A stretch of 64,000 nt of DNA from Phenylobacterium deserti (GTDB taxonomy: Bacteria; Pseudomonadota; Alphaproteobacteria; Caulobacterales; Caulobacteraceae): NCBI RefSeq assembly GCF_003254705.1, contig NZ_QFYR01000006.1, forward strand, positions 62,001 to 126,000. Reading direction: 5' to 3'. The notes under the pieces were generated by a model. It did no database searches. It was not told the origin of the DNA and saw nothing but the letters and a program-made list of their open reading frames with translations. Position 1 is the first letter of the stretch. Every line of letters begins with the position of its first letter. The position numbers and the translations under genes are program-made. Positions 25,167 through 48,990 of the stretch are shown here, in pieces.

Positions 25167-27296
25167 ATGCGTAGCCGAAGCCTTCGGGCGATTGCGGCCG
25201 CTCTCGCTGCGGCGGGGCTGGCGAGCGGCGCTCCGGCGCCTGGAGGAAACGGCTTCGCGCCCGCCTCGCAGGATTGGCCCGCCTACGGCGGCAATCCGGC
25301 AGGGCAGCGCTATTCGGCGCTCGCCCAGATCACACCAGCGAACGTGGCCAGCCTTGCGCCGGCCTGGCGGTTCGACACGGGCGAGGGCGAGCTTCAGACC
25401 CACCCGCTGGCCATGGACGGCGTAGTGTTCGGCTTCACGCCCGGACTGAAGGTGGTGGCCATCGATGGCGCCTCCGGGCGCCAACTGTGGCGGTTCGATC
25501 CCGGACTTGAGGGCACTCAGCCCTCCCGGGGCTTCGCCTGGTGGACCGACGGCAAGACCAAGCGGCTGTTCGCCGGCGTCATGAACAGGCTCTATGCCCT
25601 CGATCCCGCCACCGGGCGGCCCGACCCCGCCTTTGGCAAGGGCGGCATGATCGACCTGCGCGAGGGCTTCGAAGGCGATCCGGCCCGCCAGGCGGTCTAC
25701 AACACCACCCCGGGCGTGATCTTCGGCGACCTTATCATCCTGGGCTTCCGCACTTCCGAAAGCGCGCCCGCCACGCCGGGCGATATCCGGGCCTATGACG
25801 TGAGGACCGGCGCCCTGCGTTGGACCTTCCACACTCTGCCAAAGGCCGGCGAGCCTGGGCATGAGACCTGGTCGCGCGATCCACGGACGGTGAGCGGAGC
25901 TGCGAACAACTGGGCCGGGATGGCGCTCGATCGCGCCCGCGGCATCGTCTACGTCCCCACCGGCTCAGCGGTGAACGACTTCTACGGCGCGGATCGGCTG
26001 GGCGATAACCTCTACGCCAACAGCCTCCTCGCCCTCGATGCGCGGACTGGGAAGCGCATCTGGCACTTCCAGGCTGTCCACCACGACATCCTCGACCGAG
26101 ACTTCCCTTCGCCGCCGGTGCTGCTCACCGTGCGGCAGAATGGGCGGTCCATCGATGCTGTCGCCCAGGCGACCAAGCACGGGGCGCTCTTCGTCTTCGA
26201 CCGCGTCACGGGGCATCCGCTGTTCCCCATCGAGGAGCGGCCGGTTCCGGCCAGCACCGTGCCGGGCGAGCGGGCCGCGCCGACCCAGCCGATGCCGCTG
26301 AAGCCTGCCCCCTATTCGCGTCAGCAGCTCACCGAAGACATGCTCACGCGCCGCACGCCCCAGGCGCACGCCTGGGCTGTCGAGGCGTTTCGCAAGCTGA
26401 TCAACGGCGGCCCCTTCCAGCCCCTGTCCGTGGGACGCGATTCCGTCGTCATGCCCGGCTATGACGGCGGCGCTGAGTGGGGCGGCCAAGCGGTCGATCC
26501 CAAGAGCGGCGTGCTCTTCATCAACGCCAACGACATGGCCTGGCTGGGCTCGCTGCGGGAGGCGGCGAGCGGCGGCGGGGCGGCTGGGGAGCGGACCTAT
26601 CAGGCCCAATGCGCCGTCTGTCATGGCGCCAACCGTGAAGGCGCGCCGCCCAATTTCCCAGACTTGCGCGACGTGACCCAGCGGCTCACGGAAGCGCAGA
26701 TCGACTACATCATCCGTCAGGGCCGCGGGCGTATGCCGGGCTTCCCGCAACTCAGCGACGTGCAGCGGGAGGAGGTCGTGGAGTTCCTCGCCGGCCGCAC
26801 GCCGCAAGCGGGCGAGAAGCGGGAGGTGAGCAATGGGCCGGAGCGGGCGCCCTATCGCTTCACCGGCTATCGGCGGTTCAACGACCCGGATGGCTACCCG
26901 GCCGTCGCCCCTCCGTGGGGAACTCTGAACGCCATTGATCTGAACACCGGCGAGTACCTGTGGCGGATCCCGTTCGGCTCCTATCCGGACCTTGCCGCCA
27001 AGGGTCAGCCCGACACGGGGTCCGAGAGCTACGGCGGCCCGATCGTCACCGGCAGCGGCCTTCTGTTTATCGGCGCGACCGTGCATGACCGCATGTTCCG
27101 CGCGTTCGACAGTCGCACGGGCAAGCTGCTCTGGCGCCAGGAGCTGCCGTTCGCCGGAACCGCGACGCCGATCACCTACATGGCTGGCGGGCGTCAGTAT
27201 GTGCTGATCGCCGCAAGTGGTGGGCGCAACAAGGCGGGGCCGCAAGGCAGCGCCTATGTGGCCTTCGCCCTGCCTGCCGGGCGCCGGGCCAACTGA
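25167..27296 (+). CDS. PQQ-dependent dehydrogenase with an internal cytochrome c domain (quinohemoprotein)
   Basis: 709 residues, ATG with GGGGG upstream. Signal peptide, then an eight-bladed propeller of W-motif repeats (DWPAYGGNPAGQRYSAL, ANVASLAPAWRFDTG, GRQLWRFDPG, GALRWTFHTLP). A c-type heme domain is inserted in the last third: C482-A-V-C485-H486 and a probable Met ligand in GRGRMPGFP; the propeller then resumes (INTG/IDLNTGEYLWRIPFG). Periplasmic oxidation of an alcohol or sugar with direct transfer to the built-in heme. Calcium/PQQ ligands cannot be assigned by eye, and no pqq biosynthesis genes are in the window. Last gene of the sugar cluster by position; 40 bp after the isomerase. 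Confidence 0.88.
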   Translation: MRSRSLRAIAAALAAAGLASGAPAPGGNGFAPASQDWPAYGGNPAGQRYSALAQITPANVASLAPAWRFDTGEGELQTHPLAMDGVVFGFTPGLKVVAIDGASGRQLWRFDPGLEGTQPSRGFAWWTDGKTKRLFAGVMNRLYALDPATGRPDPAFGKGGMIDLREGFEGDPARQAVYNTTPGVIFGDLIILGFRTSESAPATPGDIRAYDVRTGALRWTFHTLPKAGEPGHETWSRDPRTVSGAANNWAGMALDRARGIVYVPTGSAVNDFYGADRLGDNLYANSLLALDARTGKRIWHFQAVHHDILDRDFPSPPVLLTVRQNGRSIDAVAQATKHGALFVFDRVTGHPLFPIEERPVPASTVPGERAAPTQPMPLKPAPYSRQQLTEDMLTRRTPQAHAWAVEAFRKLINGGPFQPLSVGRDSVVMPGYDGGAEWGGQAVDPKSGVLFINANDMAWLGSLREAASGGGAAGERTYQAQCAVCHGANREGAPPNFPDLRDVTQRLTEAQIDYIIRQGRGRMPGFPQLSDVQREEVVEFLAGRTPQAGEKREVSNGPERAPYRFTGYRRFNDPDGYPAVAPPWGTLNAIDLNTGEYLWRIPFGSYPDLAAKGQPDTGSESYGGPIVTGSGLLFIGATVHDRMFRAFDSRTGKLLWRQELPFAGTATPITYMAGGRQYVLIAASGGRNKAGPQGSAYVAFALPAGRRAN

Positions 27297-27307
27297 ACCG
27301 ACCACGC

Positions 27308-27317
27308 TTGTATGCAG
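27308..27317 (+). promoter_or_regulatory. GntR/FCD-type operator, site 1
   Basis: TTGTATGCAG, 41 bp before the D-2-hydroxyacid dehydrogenase start and just after the quinohemoprotein stop. Leftmost of the 12 sites with core TGTATRCA, so it marks the left edge of the island. Confidence 0.6.
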
Positions 27318-27357: not shown

Positions 27358-28302
27358 ATGACAAAGCCGCACCTTCTGCTGATCGCCGCCCTGCCGCCCT
27401 GGTTCCACCAAGAGCTGGAGCAGCGGTTCGAGGTGCACGGGCCGTTTGAGGGTGCGGCCGCCGAAGCCTTCTGGGCGGGGCAGGGGGCGCAGGTTCGGGC
27501 GGTGGTGACCACCGGCTCGCACGGCGTCGCCAATGCGGTGCTGGACGCCCTTCCGGGGCTGGAGATCGTGTCGGCTTATGGCGTCGGCGTCGATCAGATC
27601 GACCTGCCGCATGCCAAGGCGCGCGGCGTGACCGTGACCAACACCCCCGATGTTTTGACGGACGATGTTGCGGACCTGGCGATCGCCCTGACCCTGGCTG
27701 TTCAGCGCCGCATCGCCGCCAACGACCGGTTTGTGCGCGACGGCCGATGGGAGAGCGGAGAGCGGGTCCCACTCGGACGCAAGGTCAGCGGTTCGCGAGT
27801 GGGGATCCTAGGGCTTGGCCGGATCGGTCGGGCCATCGCTCGGCGCTTCGAAGGCTTCACGGACCAGATCCGCTACCACAGCCGCAACCCTGTGGAGGGC
27901 GCACCCTATCCCTACGAAGCCAGCGCCGAAAGCTTGGCGGCGTACGCCGACATCCTGGTCGTCGCCACGTCCGGCGGACCCGAAGCACGTCGGCTTGTGG
28001 ATGCAGAGGTGCTGGCGGCTTTGGGCGCGCAAGGCGTGCTGATCAACATCTCACGTGGCGCTGTGGTCGATCAGGATGCGCTTGTGTCAGCGCTTGCGGA
28101 AGGCAAGCTGGCGGGGGCGGGGCTCGACGTGTTCGAGGACGAGCCGAACACGCCGCACGCGCTGTGGGCCATGGAGCAGGTGGTGCTGCAGCCGCACCAG
28201 GGCAGCGCCACGGAGGAGACCCGCCGAGCCATGGGCGAGCGGGTGCTCCAGAACCTCGATGCCTGGCTTGCCGGGCGTGAGCCGCCCGACCGAGTCGTCT
28301 AG
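27358..28302 (+). CDS. D-isomer-specific 2-hydroxyacid dehydrogenase (hydroxypyruvate/glyoxylate reductase-like)
   Basis: 314 residues, ATG with AAGGTG upstream. NAD(P)-binding motif G152-x-G154-xx-G157 in VGILGLGRIGRAIARRF, catalytic Arg233 in INISRGAVVD, acidic residue in DVFEDEP (about 260-262), and His280 in LQPHQGSATEET, the complete triad of the family. Cytoplasmic reduction of 2-keto acids such as hydroxypyruvate or glyoxylate, or the reverse. First gene with a GntR-type site, so it belongs by control to the right-hand island and not to the sugar cluster. Its stop overlaps the convergent hypothetical gene by 4 bp. Confidence 0.92.
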   Translation: MTKPHLLLIAALPPWFHQELEQRFEVHGPFEGAAAEAFWAGQGAQVRAVVTTGSHGVANAVLDALPGLEIVSAYGVGVDQIDLPHAKARGVTVTNTPDVLTDDVADLAIALTLAVQRRIAANDRFVRDGRWESGERVPLGRKVSGSRVGILGLGRIGRAIARRFEGFTDQIRYHSRNPVEGAPYPYEASAESLAAYADILVVATSGGPEARRLVDAEVLAALGAQGVLINISRGAVVDQDALVSALAEGKLAGAGLDVFEDEPNTPHALWAMEQVVLQPHQGSATEETRRAMGERVLQNLDAWLAGREPPDRVV

Positions 28303-28742
28303 GCGGCGGCTTCCGGAGAGGCGCGCACGCCGCCCCAATAGGCCTGTCCGCGCCGATCCAGCACCAAGTCGCCGGCTGACAGCCGCCGATCCACGGCGCC
28401 GGCGTACGGGATATCCGTCACCGCCACGTAGTCGCCGCTGGGCAGCCGGCGCACGAGGAGAACGACAGCAGGCTTGCTGGTCTGGTGAAGGCGCACCGAG
28501 CTGCGCACGGTGTTGGGGTCCAGGCCCATGCCGTCTTCCAGCTGGGCTGCGCGTTGCAGAACCGTGCGCAAGGAGATCGGCCGCCCGATCTCGGTGACGC
28601 AGGCCAGCGCACGCGAGCGCAGCGATCCGGGTTGGCAGACGATGTCGCCGCCAGTCCAGATCACATGAAGATCGATGGGGGTGCGGACCAGCGCGCTGGT
28701 CAACACGGCGTCAGGGACCAACTCGGCTGAGCGATGCCGCAA
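28299..28742 (-). CDS. Hypothetical protein, 147 residues
   Basis: TTG start supported by a strong GGGAGG 7 bp upstream. No family recognised. Soluble, no signal or membrane segment. The N-terminal part (LVRTPIDLHVIWTGGDIVCQPGSLRSRALACVTEIG) looks like beta-strands; the middle (LRTVLQRAAQLEDGMGLDPNTVRSSVRLHQTSKPAVVLLVRRLPSGDYVAVTDIPYAG) reads like a small alpha/beta domain; the C-terminus repeats short LVLDRRGQAYWGG. Codon use is like its neighbours. A GntR-type site lies 61 bp upstream, so it may be a regulon member; the convergent overlap with the dehydrogenase gene is 4 bp. Function unknown. Confidence 0.7.
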   Translation of the reverse strand: MRHRSAELVPDAVLTSALVRTPIDLHVIWTGGDIVCQPGSLRSRALACVTEIGRPISLRTVLQRAAQLEDGMGLDPNTVRSSVRLHQTSKPAVVLLVRRLPSGDYVAVTDIPYAGAVDRRLSAGDLVLDRRGQAYWGGVRASPEAAA

Positions 28743-28802: not shown

Positions 28803-28812
28803 GTGTATACAA
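28803..28812. promoter_or_regulatory. GntR/FCD-type operator, site 2
   Basis: GTGTATACAA in the divergent region between the hypothetical gene (minus) and the candidate sRNA/AbrB-family gene (plus). Confidence 0.6.
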
Positions 28813-28835
28813 CTCAACGAGCCGATGCTAGGCAA

Positions 28836-28910
28836 TTCTGGTGCGGGGTTCGCCCCGAGCCTCTTTCCTCCCTTGACCAGCCGCGTTTGCGCGCGGCTGG
28901 TTTTCTTTTT
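28836..28910 (+). ncRNA. Candidate small RNA with anti-Shine-Dalgarno-like linker
   Basis: A complete intrinsic terminator occurs on the plus strand with no protein gene in front of it for over 500 bp on that strand. Preceding it are a CGGGG-UUCG-CCCCG hairpin (28844-28857) and an unpaired pyrimidine-rich stretch containing CTTTCCTCCCTT (28861-28874), which can pair with GGAGG ribosome sites. This hairpin - CCUCC linker - terminator layout resembles trans-acting sRNAs of alphaproteobacteria. The 5' end is a guess (between about 28813 and 28843); no convincing -10/-35 pair was found. A GntR-type site lies just upstream, so it may belong to the regulon. Confidence 0.4.
28876..28910 (+). terminator. 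Strong intrinsic terminator
   Basis: accagccgcg / cgcggctggt, 10-bp stem, 6-base loop, followed by TTTCTTTTT on the plus strand. Confidence 0.9.
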
Positions 28911-28939
28911 CTGGCTGTCCGGCAGCCATCGCGCTCCGC

Positions 28940-28949
28940 ATGTATGCAA
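28940..28949. promoter_or_regulatory. GntR/FCD-type operator, site 3
   Basis: ATGTATGCAA, 54 bp before the preferred start of the AbrB-family gene. The most upstream in-frame ATG of that gene lies inside this site, which argues for the downstream start. Confidence 0.55.
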
Positions 28950-29002: not shown

Positions 29003-30061
29003 ATGAACCAGGTCGCGCCCGACCGCACGGCTTTCCGCGCTGAACTGCGAAGGTCGTTCGAGACTGCGCTCATCGCAGCGGCCGGCGCCGGTGTTTTCGT
29101 TCTGCTCAAGGTACCGGCCGGTCCGGTGCTTGGGGCTCTGCTGTTTACGGCCGCAGCGGCGCTTGCAGGCCGCAAGCTGGGATGGTCGCGCCGCGTCCGC
29201 AATCTGCTGTTCCTGCTGACCGGGTTGGGCGCTGGGGCCAGCGTCACGCCGGCGGCTGTTATGGCCGCGAAGACGTGGCCGCTTTCGCTGGCTGCGCTGG
29301 TCGTTAGCACCGCTGCGATGTGGAGCTTGGGCGCTATTGTTTTCGCGCGCCTGTCCAGGGCTGATCGAACGACCGCCATGTTCGCGTCGGCTCCGGGGGC
29401 GCTGTCCGCCGTGATGGTGCTTGCGGAGGAGCAGCAGGCGAACGTGGTGGGCGTCGCGGTCGCGCAGACGCTTCGCATCTCCACGCTTGTCGCTATGGCG
29501 CCACTGGCGCTGAGCTTTGGACATCCCACGCCCATGGAGCCGCACGCGGCCCCGCTTCTTGGGGGAGCGGTGGGCTGGCTGGTGCTTGCCGTGTCGGTGC
29601 TCGCGGGGGTCGCCTTGGCCCACCGCCTTCGCTGGCCGGTGCCGATCTTCCTCGGCGCAATGACGGGTAGCGCGCTGGTTCATGGGACGGGCTTTGTCGC
29701 TGCGGCCTTACCGCCCCAAAGCTTTCAGGTCGCCGCGGCCGGCATCGGCGCGGTGATCGGTTCGCGTTTCAGCGGCATCCGCCTCTCCGATCTCCTGCGG
29801 CTGCTGCCGCCCAGTCTGGCGAGCTTGGTGGTCATGGCCGTGGTGGGCGCTCCCTTAGGAGCGGCTGTCGGCTGGATGGTGGGGGTCGGGCCGGCCGCTG
29901 GCCTGATGGCGTTCGCGCCGGGTAGCATGGAGATGATGGTAGCGGTATCTATCACTCTGAACGCTCATCCGGCGTATGTGGCCGCGCACCATCTCTCCCG
30001 GACGATCCTGCTGCTCGCCGCGCTGCCGTGGCTGGCGCGCAGAAGACAGCCGGAAAGCTGA
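29003..30061 (+). CDS. AbrB/AbrB-duplication family polytopic membrane protein
   Basis: 352 residues from the ATG at 29003; an ATG at 28940 is open but overlaps an operator. About ten hydrophobic helices arranged as two similar halves (GPVLGALLFTAAAALAGRKLGWSR versus VPIFLGAMTGSALVHGTG; FASAPGALSAVMVLAEEQ versus AFAPGSMEMMVAVSITL). The paired A-PG-(A/S)-x-x-(A/E)MM motifs are typical of PF05145, misnamed AbrB regulator or ammonia monooxygenase in databases; real role is unknown but a transporter of small organic anions is plausible. Inner membrane. Followed at 30080 by the operator of the next operon. Confidence 0.82.
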   Translation: MNQVAPDRTAFRAELRRSFETALIAAAGAGVFVLLKVPAGPVLGALLFTAAAALAGRKLGWSRRVRNLLFLLTGLGAGASVTPAAVMAAKTWPLSLAALVVSTAAMWSLGAIVFARLSRADRTTAMFASAPGALSAVMVLAEEQQANVVGVAVAQTLRISTLVAMAPLALSFGHPTPMEPHAAPLLGGAVGWLVLAVSVLAGVALAHRLRWPVPIFLGAMTGSALVHGTGFVAAALPPQSFQVAAAGIGAVIGSRFSGIRLSDLLRLLPPSLASLVVMAVVGAPLGAAVGWMVGVGPAAGLMAFAPGSMEMMVAVSITLNAHPAYVAAHHLSRTILLLAALPWLARRRQPES

Positions 30062-34058: not shown

Positions 34059-34841
34059 ATGAGCAAGAATTCAGCGTCCGAAACAGCCGCCATCGCCGAT
34101 GCCGCTCCTTCGGACATGGTCCGGAAACCTCGCGTGCGCGAGCAAAAGGGCTGGCGACACAAGGATGCGGTCAGCCTTCTGAGGCAGATGATCCTGTCTG
34201 GCGAACTGGCGCCGGGCTACGCCCTTCGTGAAGTCGCCATCAGCGAACGGCTCGGGATGTCGCGCACGCCGGTGCGTGAAGCTTTCCGCACCTTGGCGGC
34301 CGAAGGTTTGGTCGAGCTGCTGCCGAACCGCAGCGTGGTGGTCGCCGAACTCGACGAGAACGAATCCATCGATGTCTTTTCGGTGCTAGGCACGCTGGAG
34401 TCTCTCGCCGGGCAGCAAGCCTGCCAACGCATGACCCCCGAACAGCTCGAACGTCTCGAGGCGCTGCAGCGCGAGATGGAGGAGCACTACAACAACCACG
34501 ACCGAGCCAGCTATATCCGCGCTAACCGCGCGATCCACGAGCTGATGGTCGAGGGGTCGAACAACAACGCGCTGATCCTGGCCTGGCGGCTAATCCTGCC
34601 GCGGGCGGAGCGGGCCCGCTCGGTCAACACTCTGGACCGGCACCGCTGGGCGGAAGCGCTGGAAGAACATCGCAAGATCTTCGCGGCCCTGGCGGCGAGG
34701 GACGGCCTGCGCCTGTCTTCGCTGATGCAGGACCACTTCGCGCGCGGCGTGATCGAGCGCATGACGGACACCAAGTTCAAGAACCGGGTCCGTGTGCGCG
34801 CGGGCTCCGCCGAACGGGCTGCTGAGCCCGTGGCGGACTAG
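34059..34841 (+). CDS. GntR-family transcriptional regulator, FCD (FadR-like) subfamily
   Basis: 260 residues. About 35 low-complexity N-terminal residues, then the winged helix (KDAVSLLRQMILSGELAPGYALREVAISERLGMSRTPVREAFRTLAAEGLVELLPNRSVVV) and an all-helical FCD ligand domain (residues about 120-240) with conserved acidic/His positions (LARLxxMEEHYNNHDRASYIRANRAIHELMVEGSNN; DRHRWAEALEEHRKIFAAL) that bind a metal and a carboxylate effector. Sits in the middle of the island between the dehydrogenase operon and the CoA-transferase operon. With the second GntR protein at 51539 it is a prime candidate to bind the TGTATRCA sites. Confidence 0.92.
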   Translation: MSKNSASETAAIADAAPSDMVRKPRVREQKGWRHKDAVSLLRQMILSGELAPGYALREVAISERLGMSRTPVREAFRTLAAEGLVELLPNRSVVVAELDENESIDVFSVLGTLESLAGQQACQRMTPEQLERLEALQREMEEHYNNHDRASYIRANRAIHELMVEGSNNNALILAWRLILPRAERARSVNTLDRHRWAEALEEHRKIFAALAARDGLRLSSLMQDHFARGVIERMTDTKFKNRVRVRAGSAERAAEPVAD

Positions 34842-44926: not shown

Positions 44927-44936
44927 TTGTATGCAA
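44927..44936. promoter_or_regulatory. GntR/FCD-type operator, site 8
   Basis: TTGTATGCAA, perfect consensus, 88 bp before the 45024 gene and about 120 bp before the divergent bicupin. Confidence 0.65.
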
Positions 44937-46937: not shown

Positions 46938-48950
46938 CTACGGCAGGGCGTAGACGACCAGCTCGCCGGGCGAGTCCGGCCCCGACGAAGCTACGGCGAT
47001 GTATTGCTTGCCGTCGAGCGCGTAGGTCATGGGCGAGCCCGACTGACGGCTCGGCATCCGCACCTGGCCCACTTCCTTGCCGGTGGCCTTGTCATAGGCC
47101 CGCAACCAGCCGCTGCGGACGCCATCGGCACCGGTGGTCGGCTGCCCATCGCCGATGATCACCAGTGTCTTGGTGGTCAGCGGACCGATCAGGGCGTTGC
47201 TGCCGGTGCGGGGGATGTTCATGCCCTTCAGCGCCGGGTGGTTCTTCACATAGTCCGGCGTCTCGCCGTGGGCGATCTGCCAGGCGATGTCGCCCTTGTT
47301 CAGGTCGATCGCCGTCACGCGCCCATAGGGCGGCTTGATCAGCGGCAGACCTTGGACGTCAATCCGGCCGCGGCGGCGCACGCCCGTGGCGTTGGGGTCG
47401 CGGGCGATGTTCAGGCCCATGCCTGCATCGCTGACTTCGGGGTCGATGGGGCCGATGCCCAGTGCGCCGATCAGGGTCTGGGAGAAGACGTAGACCGTGT
47501 TGGTTTCCGGATCAAACGAGCCGCCCGGCCAGTTGGTCCCGCCTTGGACGGCCGGCATCATCAGGGTCGCCAGCGGACCCGGCCACTTGCTGAGCACCGG
47601 CGGGGTATAGAGCGGCCCGATCTTGTAGTTGGACACGAGCTTCACCGCTTCGGCCCGCAGCTCGGGCGTGAAGTCGATCAGGTCGTCGATGGCCACGCCC
47701 TGCCGGTCGTAGGCAGGCGGCTTGCTCGGCATCGGCTGGGTCGGCGCGTACCACTCGCCGGGCACGTCGCCCTTCGGCACGGGCTTCTCGGGGATCGGCC
47801 ACACCGGCTTGCCGGTTTCGCGGTCCAGTACATAGAGCCAGGCCTGCTTAGTCGGCTGGGCGATCGCCTTGATCTTCTTACCGCGCACGGTGATGTCGGC
47901 CAGGATCGCGGCGCAGGGCACGTCACGGTCCCACAGGCCGTGGTGGATCATTTGGTAGTGCCAGCGGCGCTTGCCGGTCTTCACGTCCAGCGCGACGATG
48001 CTCTCGCTGAACAGGTTGTCGCCAGGACGATTGCCGCCGTACCAGTCGCCGGTCGGGGATTCGACGCCGATGTAGACGAGGCCGAGCTGCGGGTCGGCGC
48101 TCATCTGCGCCCAGACGCCGGTGTTGCCGGTGTACTCGTCCGAGCCGTTCAGCCAGGTGTTGTTGCCGACCTCGCCCTTGCCCGGGATGGTGTGGAAGAT
48201 CCACAGGCGCTTGCCGGTGCGCACGTCATAGCCGCGCACCGCGCCCTTCACGTTCTTCTTGTTCGGCGCATCGCCGGGCTCATGTGCGGCGCCGACCACG
48301 ATGATGTCGCCCACCACCAGCGGCGTGGCGTTCAGGCCGATCTTGGCCGTGGTCGGGTCGAGCCCTTCTTGGTCGAGCTCGGCCTTCAGGTCGACGATGC
48401 CGTTCTTGCCGAACCCGGGGATCGGCAGGCCGGTCTTCGCGTCGAGGCCGATCATCTGATAGCCAGGCGTCACGTAGATGACGCGCTCTTCCTGGCCGTC
48501 GGTCCAGTACGACAGGCCGCGGCCGCTGCCTTGGCGGGGGCCTTCGCGTCCGCGCTGGCCTTCGTTGATCGAGTACTTCCACAGAAGCTCGCCGTTGCGC
48601 GCGTCCAGCGCCACGGCGGCCCGGCGGGTGCCGGCCGTCAGGTACAGCACGCCGTTCTTCATCAGCGGCGTGGCCTGCAGGTTGGTGTCCGGCGCCGGAC
48701 CCATGTTGTCGGCCTTGAAGCGCCAGGCGATCTGCAGCTGGTTGAAGTTGTCCGCCTTCACCTGGTCCAGCGGCGAGTAGCGCCAGGCGCCCAGGTTGCC
48801 GGCGTAGGTCGGCCATTCGCCGTTCTGGACGCCGTCGCCGATGGACGGGCCGCCGGCGCTCTGCGCCTCGGCCGTGGTGGAGATGCCGTTGCCCGCCAGG
48901 AAGAGGGCCAGGCCGGCCGCGGAGATGGAGCGGCGCGTAAGCTCAGTCAT
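46938..48950 (-). CDS. PQQ-dependent dehydrogenase without heme domain
   Basis: 670 residues, ATG with GGGAGGAAA upstream. Tat-like signal (MTELTRRSISAAGLALFLAGNG). Propeller W-repeats: EWPTYAGNLGAWRYSPLDQV, FNQLQIAWRFKADNMG, NGELLWKYSINEG, GKRLWIFHTIPGKGE, GKRRWHYQMIHHGLWDRDVPCAAILAD, then IDLNKGDIAWQIAHG. No CxxCH anywhere, unlike the other two quinoproteins in the window. Oxidises an alcohol or sugar in the periplasm, passing electrons to a separate acceptor, probably the 98-residue cytochrome downstream. Encoded 40 bp after the quinohemoprotein on the same strand. Confidence 0.9.
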   Translation of the reverse strand: MTELTRRSISAAGLALFLAGNGISTTAEAQSAGGPSIGDGVQNGEWPTYAGNLGAWRYSPLDQVKADNFNQLQIAWRFKADNMGPAPDTNLQATPLMKNGVLYLTAGTRRAAVALDARNGELLWKYSINEGQRGREGPRQGSGRGLSYWTDGQEERVIYVTPGYQMIGLDAKTGLPIPGFGKNGIVDLKAELDQEGLDPTTAKIGLNATPLVVGDIIVVGAAHEPGDAPNKKNVKGAVRGYDVRTGKRLWIFHTIPGKGEVGNNTWLNGSDEYTGNTGVWAQMSADPQLGLVYIGVESPTGDWYGGNRPGDNLFSESIVALDVKTGKRRWHYQMIHHGLWDRDVPCAAILADITVRGKKIKAIAQPTKQAWLYVLDRETGKPVWPIPEKPVPKGDVPGEWYAPTQPMPSKPPAYDRQGVAIDDLIDFTPELRAEAVKLVSNYKIGPLYTPPVLSKWPGPLATLMMPAVQGGTNWPGGSFDPETNTVYVFSQTLIGALGIGPIDPEVSDAGMGLNIARDPNATGVRRRGRIDVQGLPLIKPPYGRVTAIDLNKGDIAWQIAHGETPDYVKNHPALKGMNIPRTGSNALIGPLTTKTLVIIGDGQPTTGADGVRSGWLRAYDKATGKEVGQVRMPSRQSGSPMTYALDGKQYIAVASSGPDSPGELVVYALP

Positions 48951-48990
48951 TGTTTCCTCCCGGTCCAGCGTCGTTGCGCCGGAGGGTTCA

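Follow-up and report, generated by a model that had tools for sequence, protein, structure and literature searches.

The stretch from 28838 to 28911 of the window (the whole 64,000-nucleotide stretch of DNA analysed) probably encodes a free-standing small RNA (sRNA) that is controlled by a GntR-type regulator, resembles the alphaR8 RNAs and blocks translation at Shine-Dalgarno sequences. The first-pass annotation had proposed here an independent sRNA with an anti-Shine-Dalgarno linker beside a GntR-type site. That proposal is supported in part, as the linker is the alphaR8 core, a family identity absent from the annotation, and the layout recurs in a second genome (G066). Judged from its sequence, the locus is probably a real and functional sRNA locus of a divergent, alphaR8-like kind. 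According to the available text of Vogt et al. (2025), alphaR8 RNAs are marked by a terminator and by the internal sequence 5'-UUUCCUCCCU-3', which is single-stranded and comes after a weak hairpin (PMC12559287). The family includes MmgR and SisA-D, with effects on carbon storage in Sinorhizobium and on nutrient-receptor genes in Caulobacter; whether its copies are redundant or separate in action is named there as an open question (PMC12559287). According to a second source, MmgR is an alphar8 RNA that NtrC induces and AniA represses (PMC7143759).

Layout and predicted fold of the locus

The features on which the argument draws are as follows.

28299..28742, minus strand: divergent small gene, 147 aa, TTG start; genus-restricted family, possible winged helix
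28803..28812, no strand: GntR-type operator-like palindrome GTGTATACAA, one of the sites within 1 mismatch of TTGTATACAA; recurs in G066
28824..28830, plus strand: -10-like element GATGCTA, 11 nt after TGTATACAA; recurs in G066
28838..28911, plus strand: predicted sRNA of about 70-75 nt, supported by the fold z value; start inferred, end at the terminator
28840..28861, plus strand: predicted 5' hairpin GGU.CGGGG(UUCG)CCCCG.GCC; outer helix common to G066
28864..28873, plus strand: UUUCCUCCCU, exact alphaR8 core as given in PMC12559287, putative anti-Shine-Dalgarno seed
28875..28910, plus strand: intrinsic terminator from the fold and a terminator scan, 12-bp stem at 28875-28902 and U-rich tail
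28940..28949, no strand: second operator-like site ATGTATGCAA, before the likely start (29003) of an AbrB-family permease gene
34059..34841, plus strand: GntR/FCD regulator, candidate binder of the operators; 69% match to the gene after the G066 sRNA locus
48953..48961, minus strand: GGGAGGAAA, perfect 9-nt seed complement at the ribosome site of the PQQ dehydrogenase gene 46938-48950 (minus strand)

The UUCG hairpin, unpaired linker and strong terminator that had been annotated are all present in the predicted fold, at 28840-28861, 28862-28874 and 28875-28902, respectively. The segment 28813-28910 has a minimum free energy (MFE) of -41.2 kcal/mol (z -2.89), equalled by 1 of 200 dinucleotide shuffles; from 28838 onward the energy is -36.7 kcal/mol (z -4.76), which none of 200 shuffles equalled. 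The linker is made of pyrimidines and is predicted to lie unpaired between the UUCG-loop hairpin and the GC-rich terminator stem, with UUUCCUCCCU unpaired in both the MFE and the centroid folds. The 5' hairpin is strong (-12.6 kcal/mol). A UUCG loop with C-G closure is of an especially stable type, and the loop of the 5' hairpin is closed by G-C, not C-G. The terminator has a stem and a T-rich tail as annotated, the stem being predicted to contain 12 pairs instead of the 10 bp stated. It has the most base pairs among nine terminator-like sites in a scan of 22-36 kb, a number that is no excess over the shuffle mean of 7.6; it is notable for its strength, not for its presence. At gathering thresholds, an Rfam scan of the window returned tRNA only.

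The GntR-type site does adjoin the element, in the form of GTGTATACAA at 28803-28812. No sigma-70-type promoter was found by a consensus scan of 22-36 kb (1.2 expected in shuffles). A good -35 element is absent at the sRNA and the operator overlaps the -35 place, so that a GntR/FCD protein would control initiation. The GCTA of the -10-like element GATGCTA resembles what we take to be the -10 element of Caulobacter sigma-73. We infer the 5' end of the sRNA from a placement 6-10 nt past this element.

The linker and the alphaR8 family

Positions 28864-28873 are identical to the published alphaR8 core. In the 3.87-Mb genome to which the window belongs, this 10-mer occurs at five sites, four of them in Rfam-confirmed alphaR8 genes and the remaining one in the sRNA element (reversed control, 0). 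This genome has at least five alphaR8 genes above the RF00519 cut-off, with 59-72 bits, and in the fifth canonical gene listed the core ends in A instead of T. Considering that 3.7 random occurrences of the 10-mer are expected genome-wide under a first-order model, rarity alone is weak evidence, and what counts is the location of the site 1 nt before a strong terminator. By a rough estimate, such a placement would arise by chance about 0.004 times per genome, given 7 perfect stems of at least 10 pairs per 64 kb, 20 nt for each stem and the 3.7 random 10-mers. Across the genus, 98 of 101 genomes hold at least one RF00519 copy above the cut-off; only such matches were counted, because control genomes also give matches below it (10 of 14 genomes, with 1 above it).

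With RF00519, whose cut-off is 41 bits, the sRNA stretch itself scores 19.0 (E 0.073 in 221 nt), with the core aligned. By bits, this match is third among 11 weak Rfam matches, behind SorY (22.5, cut-off 111) and BjrC1505 (20.3, cut-off 50), and a scan of the full window with stricter filters listed no RF00519 match at the sRNA at E<=10. A genus alphaR8 model (R1) was built from 27 RNAs, namely 23 of 30 fetched alphaR8 loci (7 near-identical ones dropped; L083, from the window's own genome, included) and four other copies of that genome. The sRNA element is its top match within the 64-kb window (17.0 bits, E 0.014; E 0.63 for the second match), in scores that lean on sequence since the RNAalifold structure of the model pairs part of the core. 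When the same model was run on 103 kb of DNA from two relatives, the G066 element likewise came out on top, at an E of 0.6, which is noise level.

As regards the traits of the family, the single-stranded 10-nt core is found at 28864-28873 and a terminator follows it, with the stem 28875-28902 and its U-rich tail. A hairpin is present 5' of the core, but its -12.6 kcal/mol is not weak, it is unlike the canonical GCCC/GGGC hairpin, and it differs from the 5' hairpins of all 27 genus alphaR8 RNAs. Because of this hairpin and the 19 bits against 41, the sRNA has not been filed as a full alphaR8 member; leaving membership aside, we describe it as divergent and alphaR8-like, an RNA that would work as an alphaR8 RNA does. 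It should be mentioned that two canonical alphaR8 genes stand in tandem at G000:C3:1829692-1829927 (L080), adjoined by an OmpA-family gene.

The same layout in a second genome

A syntenic element lies in G066 at L044:1965-2088, beside a relative of the divergent gene (56% identity). It consists of ATGTATACAA, 11 nt, GATGCTA, a hairpin and a terminator, at the same position relative to the divergent gene as in the window and with an identical operator-to--10 spacing (11 nt). The protein family of the divergent gene has three copies in G066, and the two other relatives are without the sRNA layout. Searches for the pattern TGTATACAA-N(8-14)-GATGCTA across 101 genomes of the genus and 398 of the order each found it in 2 genomes; the two places are identical in both searches, and the reversed controls had no match. 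When two mismatches were allowed, 6 places in 5 of the 101 genomes were matched, compared to 15 for the reversed control; such matches alone therefore mean nothing. By reading, only one of the four new places, L067, has a hairpin followed by a terminator. This place (L069:4521-4650; G066:C1:2713521) carries a GntR-like CTGTATACAG, 11 nt, AATGCTA, a hairpin, GCCUCCCU and a terminator. It lies between a NIPSNAP gene and one whose product has a superoxide-dismutase C-terminal domain. It is possibly a third element of this kind, two-mismatch matches being at background level, and the main claim does not draw on it. When the intergenic region was searched against 60 relatives by BLASTN, short matches only were obtained (best E 0.0036), and 12 relatives' loci from this search were rejected as other UUCG hairpins or apparent coding DNA.

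The alignment of the window and G066 elements (A4) has 14 common pairs, with 2 changed on both sides, both in the terminator stem, 3 changed on one side and 9 unchanged; as only pairs present in both predicted folds were taken, the comparison leans towards pairing. The two compensatory changes in the terminator helix are suggestive, coming from two sequences and no covariation test. The two elements have in common the operator, the 11-nt spacing, GATGCTA, the outer helix of the 5' hairpin, the linker length, the terminator and the neighbouring divergent gene. They differ in the inner helix, which is replaced in G066 by a longer hairpin that is still predicted to be paired and has a C/U-rich loop (CUCAUCCCUC), in the seed, and in the next gene. 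At the position of the core, G066 reads ACCAAGGCCT; the alphaR8 core is absent, so that the docking sequence is not conserved, and no RF00519 match was found at the G066 element at E<=10.

The change of seed in G066, together with the low RF00519 score and the different 5' hairpin, is what would be expected if the sRNA were real and GntR-controlled but its likeness to alphaR8 convergent or incidental, the shell of operator, promoter and terminator being the conserved part. The restriction of the exact 10-mer elsewhere in its own genome to alphaR8 genes, and its low-chance placement 1 nt before the strong terminator, argue against convergence, which we consider possible but on the whole unlikely. 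This reading overlaps the preferred one, as a convergent seed could still act like alphaR8, and the probabilities behind our wording do not sum to one. It is rather doubtful that the locus is a GntR-controlled sRNA cassette of the catabolic island with an exchangeable seed. Such a cassette would keep the operator, -10 element, outer helix, linker length and terminator, and would carry as seed the alphaR8 core in one of the two species and a different sequence in the other. If this were true, the island would plug its own substrate signal into the carbon-control sRNA network of the host, in competition with the canonical alphaR8 RNAs for targets and any sponge.

The gene after the G066 element encodes a GntR regulator, 69% identical to the 34059 regulator, whereas in the window it is the AbrB-family permease gene. 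The difference in the downstream gene favours a free-standing sRNA over a 5' leader, for which one kind of downstream gene would be expected, although two genomes only could be compared. A leader with a constitutive or conditional terminator (an attenuator) for the permease gene at 29003 would fit the common strand of the two and the short distances, the terminator ending about 30 nt before the operator-like site of the permease and about 92 nt before its likely start. However, this operator-like site past the terminator would give the permease a control of its own, and the terminator is formed in the two folds compared, the minimum-energy and the centroid fold; taken together, we find a leader improbable. 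A strong terminator downstream of a 2-hydroxyacid dehydrogenase gene on the same strand could also be only an insulator, which makes no functional RNA and stops stray transcription between two units or read-through from the dehydrogenase, but this is very improbable, as the recurring GATGCTA, the 5' hairpin and the alphaR8 core would be superfluous for an insulator and no relative of the dehydrogenase was found in the fetched G066 stretch. The possibility raised in the first-pass annotation that the RNA is just the 3' end of the dehydrogenase mRNA was likewise rejected as unlikely. Some 540 nt, with a minus-strand gene among them, separate the end of the dehydrogenase gene at 28302 from the hairpin, and no dehydrogenase relative was found near the G066 copy.

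Regulators, candidate targets and related systems

The catabolic island in the window contains PQQ dehydrogenases, MFS transporters, a TonB receptor, other dehydrogenases and two GntR/FCD regulators; for the regulator at 34059..34841, the better of its matches in the G066 stretch that was fetched is the gene that follows the sRNA locus. Allowing for one mismatch at most, TTGTATACAA is matched at 5 places in the window compared to 0.07 expected, and 0 of 100 shuffles reach 5. TTGTATGCAA with at most two mismatches has 28 matches compared to 12.2 expected, near-palindromic sites being scored on both strands, and again 0 of 100 shuffles reach 28. By eye, the operator-like sites are often near island gene starts, which suggests one or two GntR/FCD regulons, and GntR control of the sRNA is plausible. 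Sites of the TTGTATGCAA/GTGTATACAA type are seen at 27308, 28940, 30080, 36868, 37074 and 42417, and further ones at 44927, 51235, 51363, 52287 and 52340.

The divergent gene adjoins the same intergenic region and operator as the sRNA and has AGGGAGG at its ribosome site, which makes it a candidate target. Relatives are found in 5 further genomes among 101 genus genomes searched. Counting the window's own genome, the protein is present in 6 of 390 family genomes, with none outside the genus, and in 1 of 385 genomes in the class-wide search, so that there are few comparison loci. It has no Pfam or convincing NCBIfam match. Its AlphaFold2 model (pLDDT 84.5) gives weak matches to Fur/Zur-like winged helices, none of the matches in the fold search being at E<=0.001. 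A relative of the permease (29003-30061, plus strand) is present in only one other of the 101 genus genomes, at 41% identity, which is consistent with lateral acquisition. No relatives of the permease or the divergent protein were found in contigs of named organisms by a search that required exact peptide seeds, so that near genomes may escape it, and none in a plasmid search.

The statement that many island genes start with GGAGG was too strong, as GGAGG is found within 30 nt upstream in 3 of 26 start sites. Target prediction on island ribosome sites, as the annotation had suggested, yielded a perfect match but no excess of favourable energies. The match, GGGAGGAAA, has no other occurrence in the window apart from the sRNA (0.37 expected for such a 9-mer in 64 kb), and among local candidate targets it puts the PQQ dehydrogenase 46938-48950 in the lead. 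Judged by duplex energy, 2 start sites among the 26 go beyond the value that marks the 5% level in random 42-mers (-20.3) compared to 1.3 expected, and the number of passing targets is thus about as by chance; the two are the PQQ dehydrogenases at 25167 (-24.4) and 46938-48950 (-21.6). The 26 sites are predicted ones, with AbrB entered at two alternative starts and a TIM-barrel site, 24086, that is not a start codon. On both strands of the window's own genome, AGGGAGGAAA, the exact partner of the core, was not found outside alphaR8-type loci; a CrfA-type sponge with a full-length match was thus not found.

For the alphaR8-like sRNA that we favour, the following mechanism may be proposed. The sRNA promoter would overlap the GntR/FCD operator, with initiation at about 28838 under a GntR/FCD protein. 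A catabolic regulator of the island, probably that at 34059 or 51314, would repress the sRNA, or less likely activate it, according to substrate. In the resulting RNA of roughly 73 nt, UUUCCUCCCU would be exposed as an unpaired seed flanked by two hairpins; the RNA would probably be Hfq-dependent, with Hfq binding its 3' end. Like MmgR/SisA, it would pair with Shine-Dalgarno sequences of the GGGAGGA type and block translation, and it would have targets in common with the canonical alphaR8 RNAs, plus a CrfA-type sponge if one is present. Were a copy of alphaR8-like kind tied to a catabolic operator, it would give a concrete example of how an island pathway recruits the alphaR8 network. On sequence alone, a catabolic island that carries a relative or mimic of a host carbon-control RNA has a modest standing. 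No alphaR8 RNA under GntR control was found in a literature search by titles and abstract openings, most subscription journals being outside its scope.

Compared to alphaR8/MmgR/SisA-D (RF00519 suhB), the sRNA has the same order of a hairpin, single-stranded UUUCCUCCCU and a Rho-independent terminator in about 75 nt. It differs in its stronger 5' hairpin and its 19.0 bits against 41, in the UGACC that follows the core, where most canonical copies have a AAUGACUU-type sequence, and in being located in a catabolic island and under a GntR-type site. One alphaR8 copy has been described as linked to an N-formylglutamate amidohydrolase gene; among the neighbours of the sRNA locus, this linkage is not seen. 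SorY of Rhodobacter sphaeroides (RF02651) has the best Rfam score here and shares the hairpin, a CCUCCCU linker and a GC-rich terminator; with its 22.5 bits, where the gathering score is 111, the agreement is limited to the general layout. With GntR/FCD catabolic regulons, the locus has in common the palindromic sites in the island and the two FCD regulators. The difference is that an sRNA is apparently part of the regulon here.
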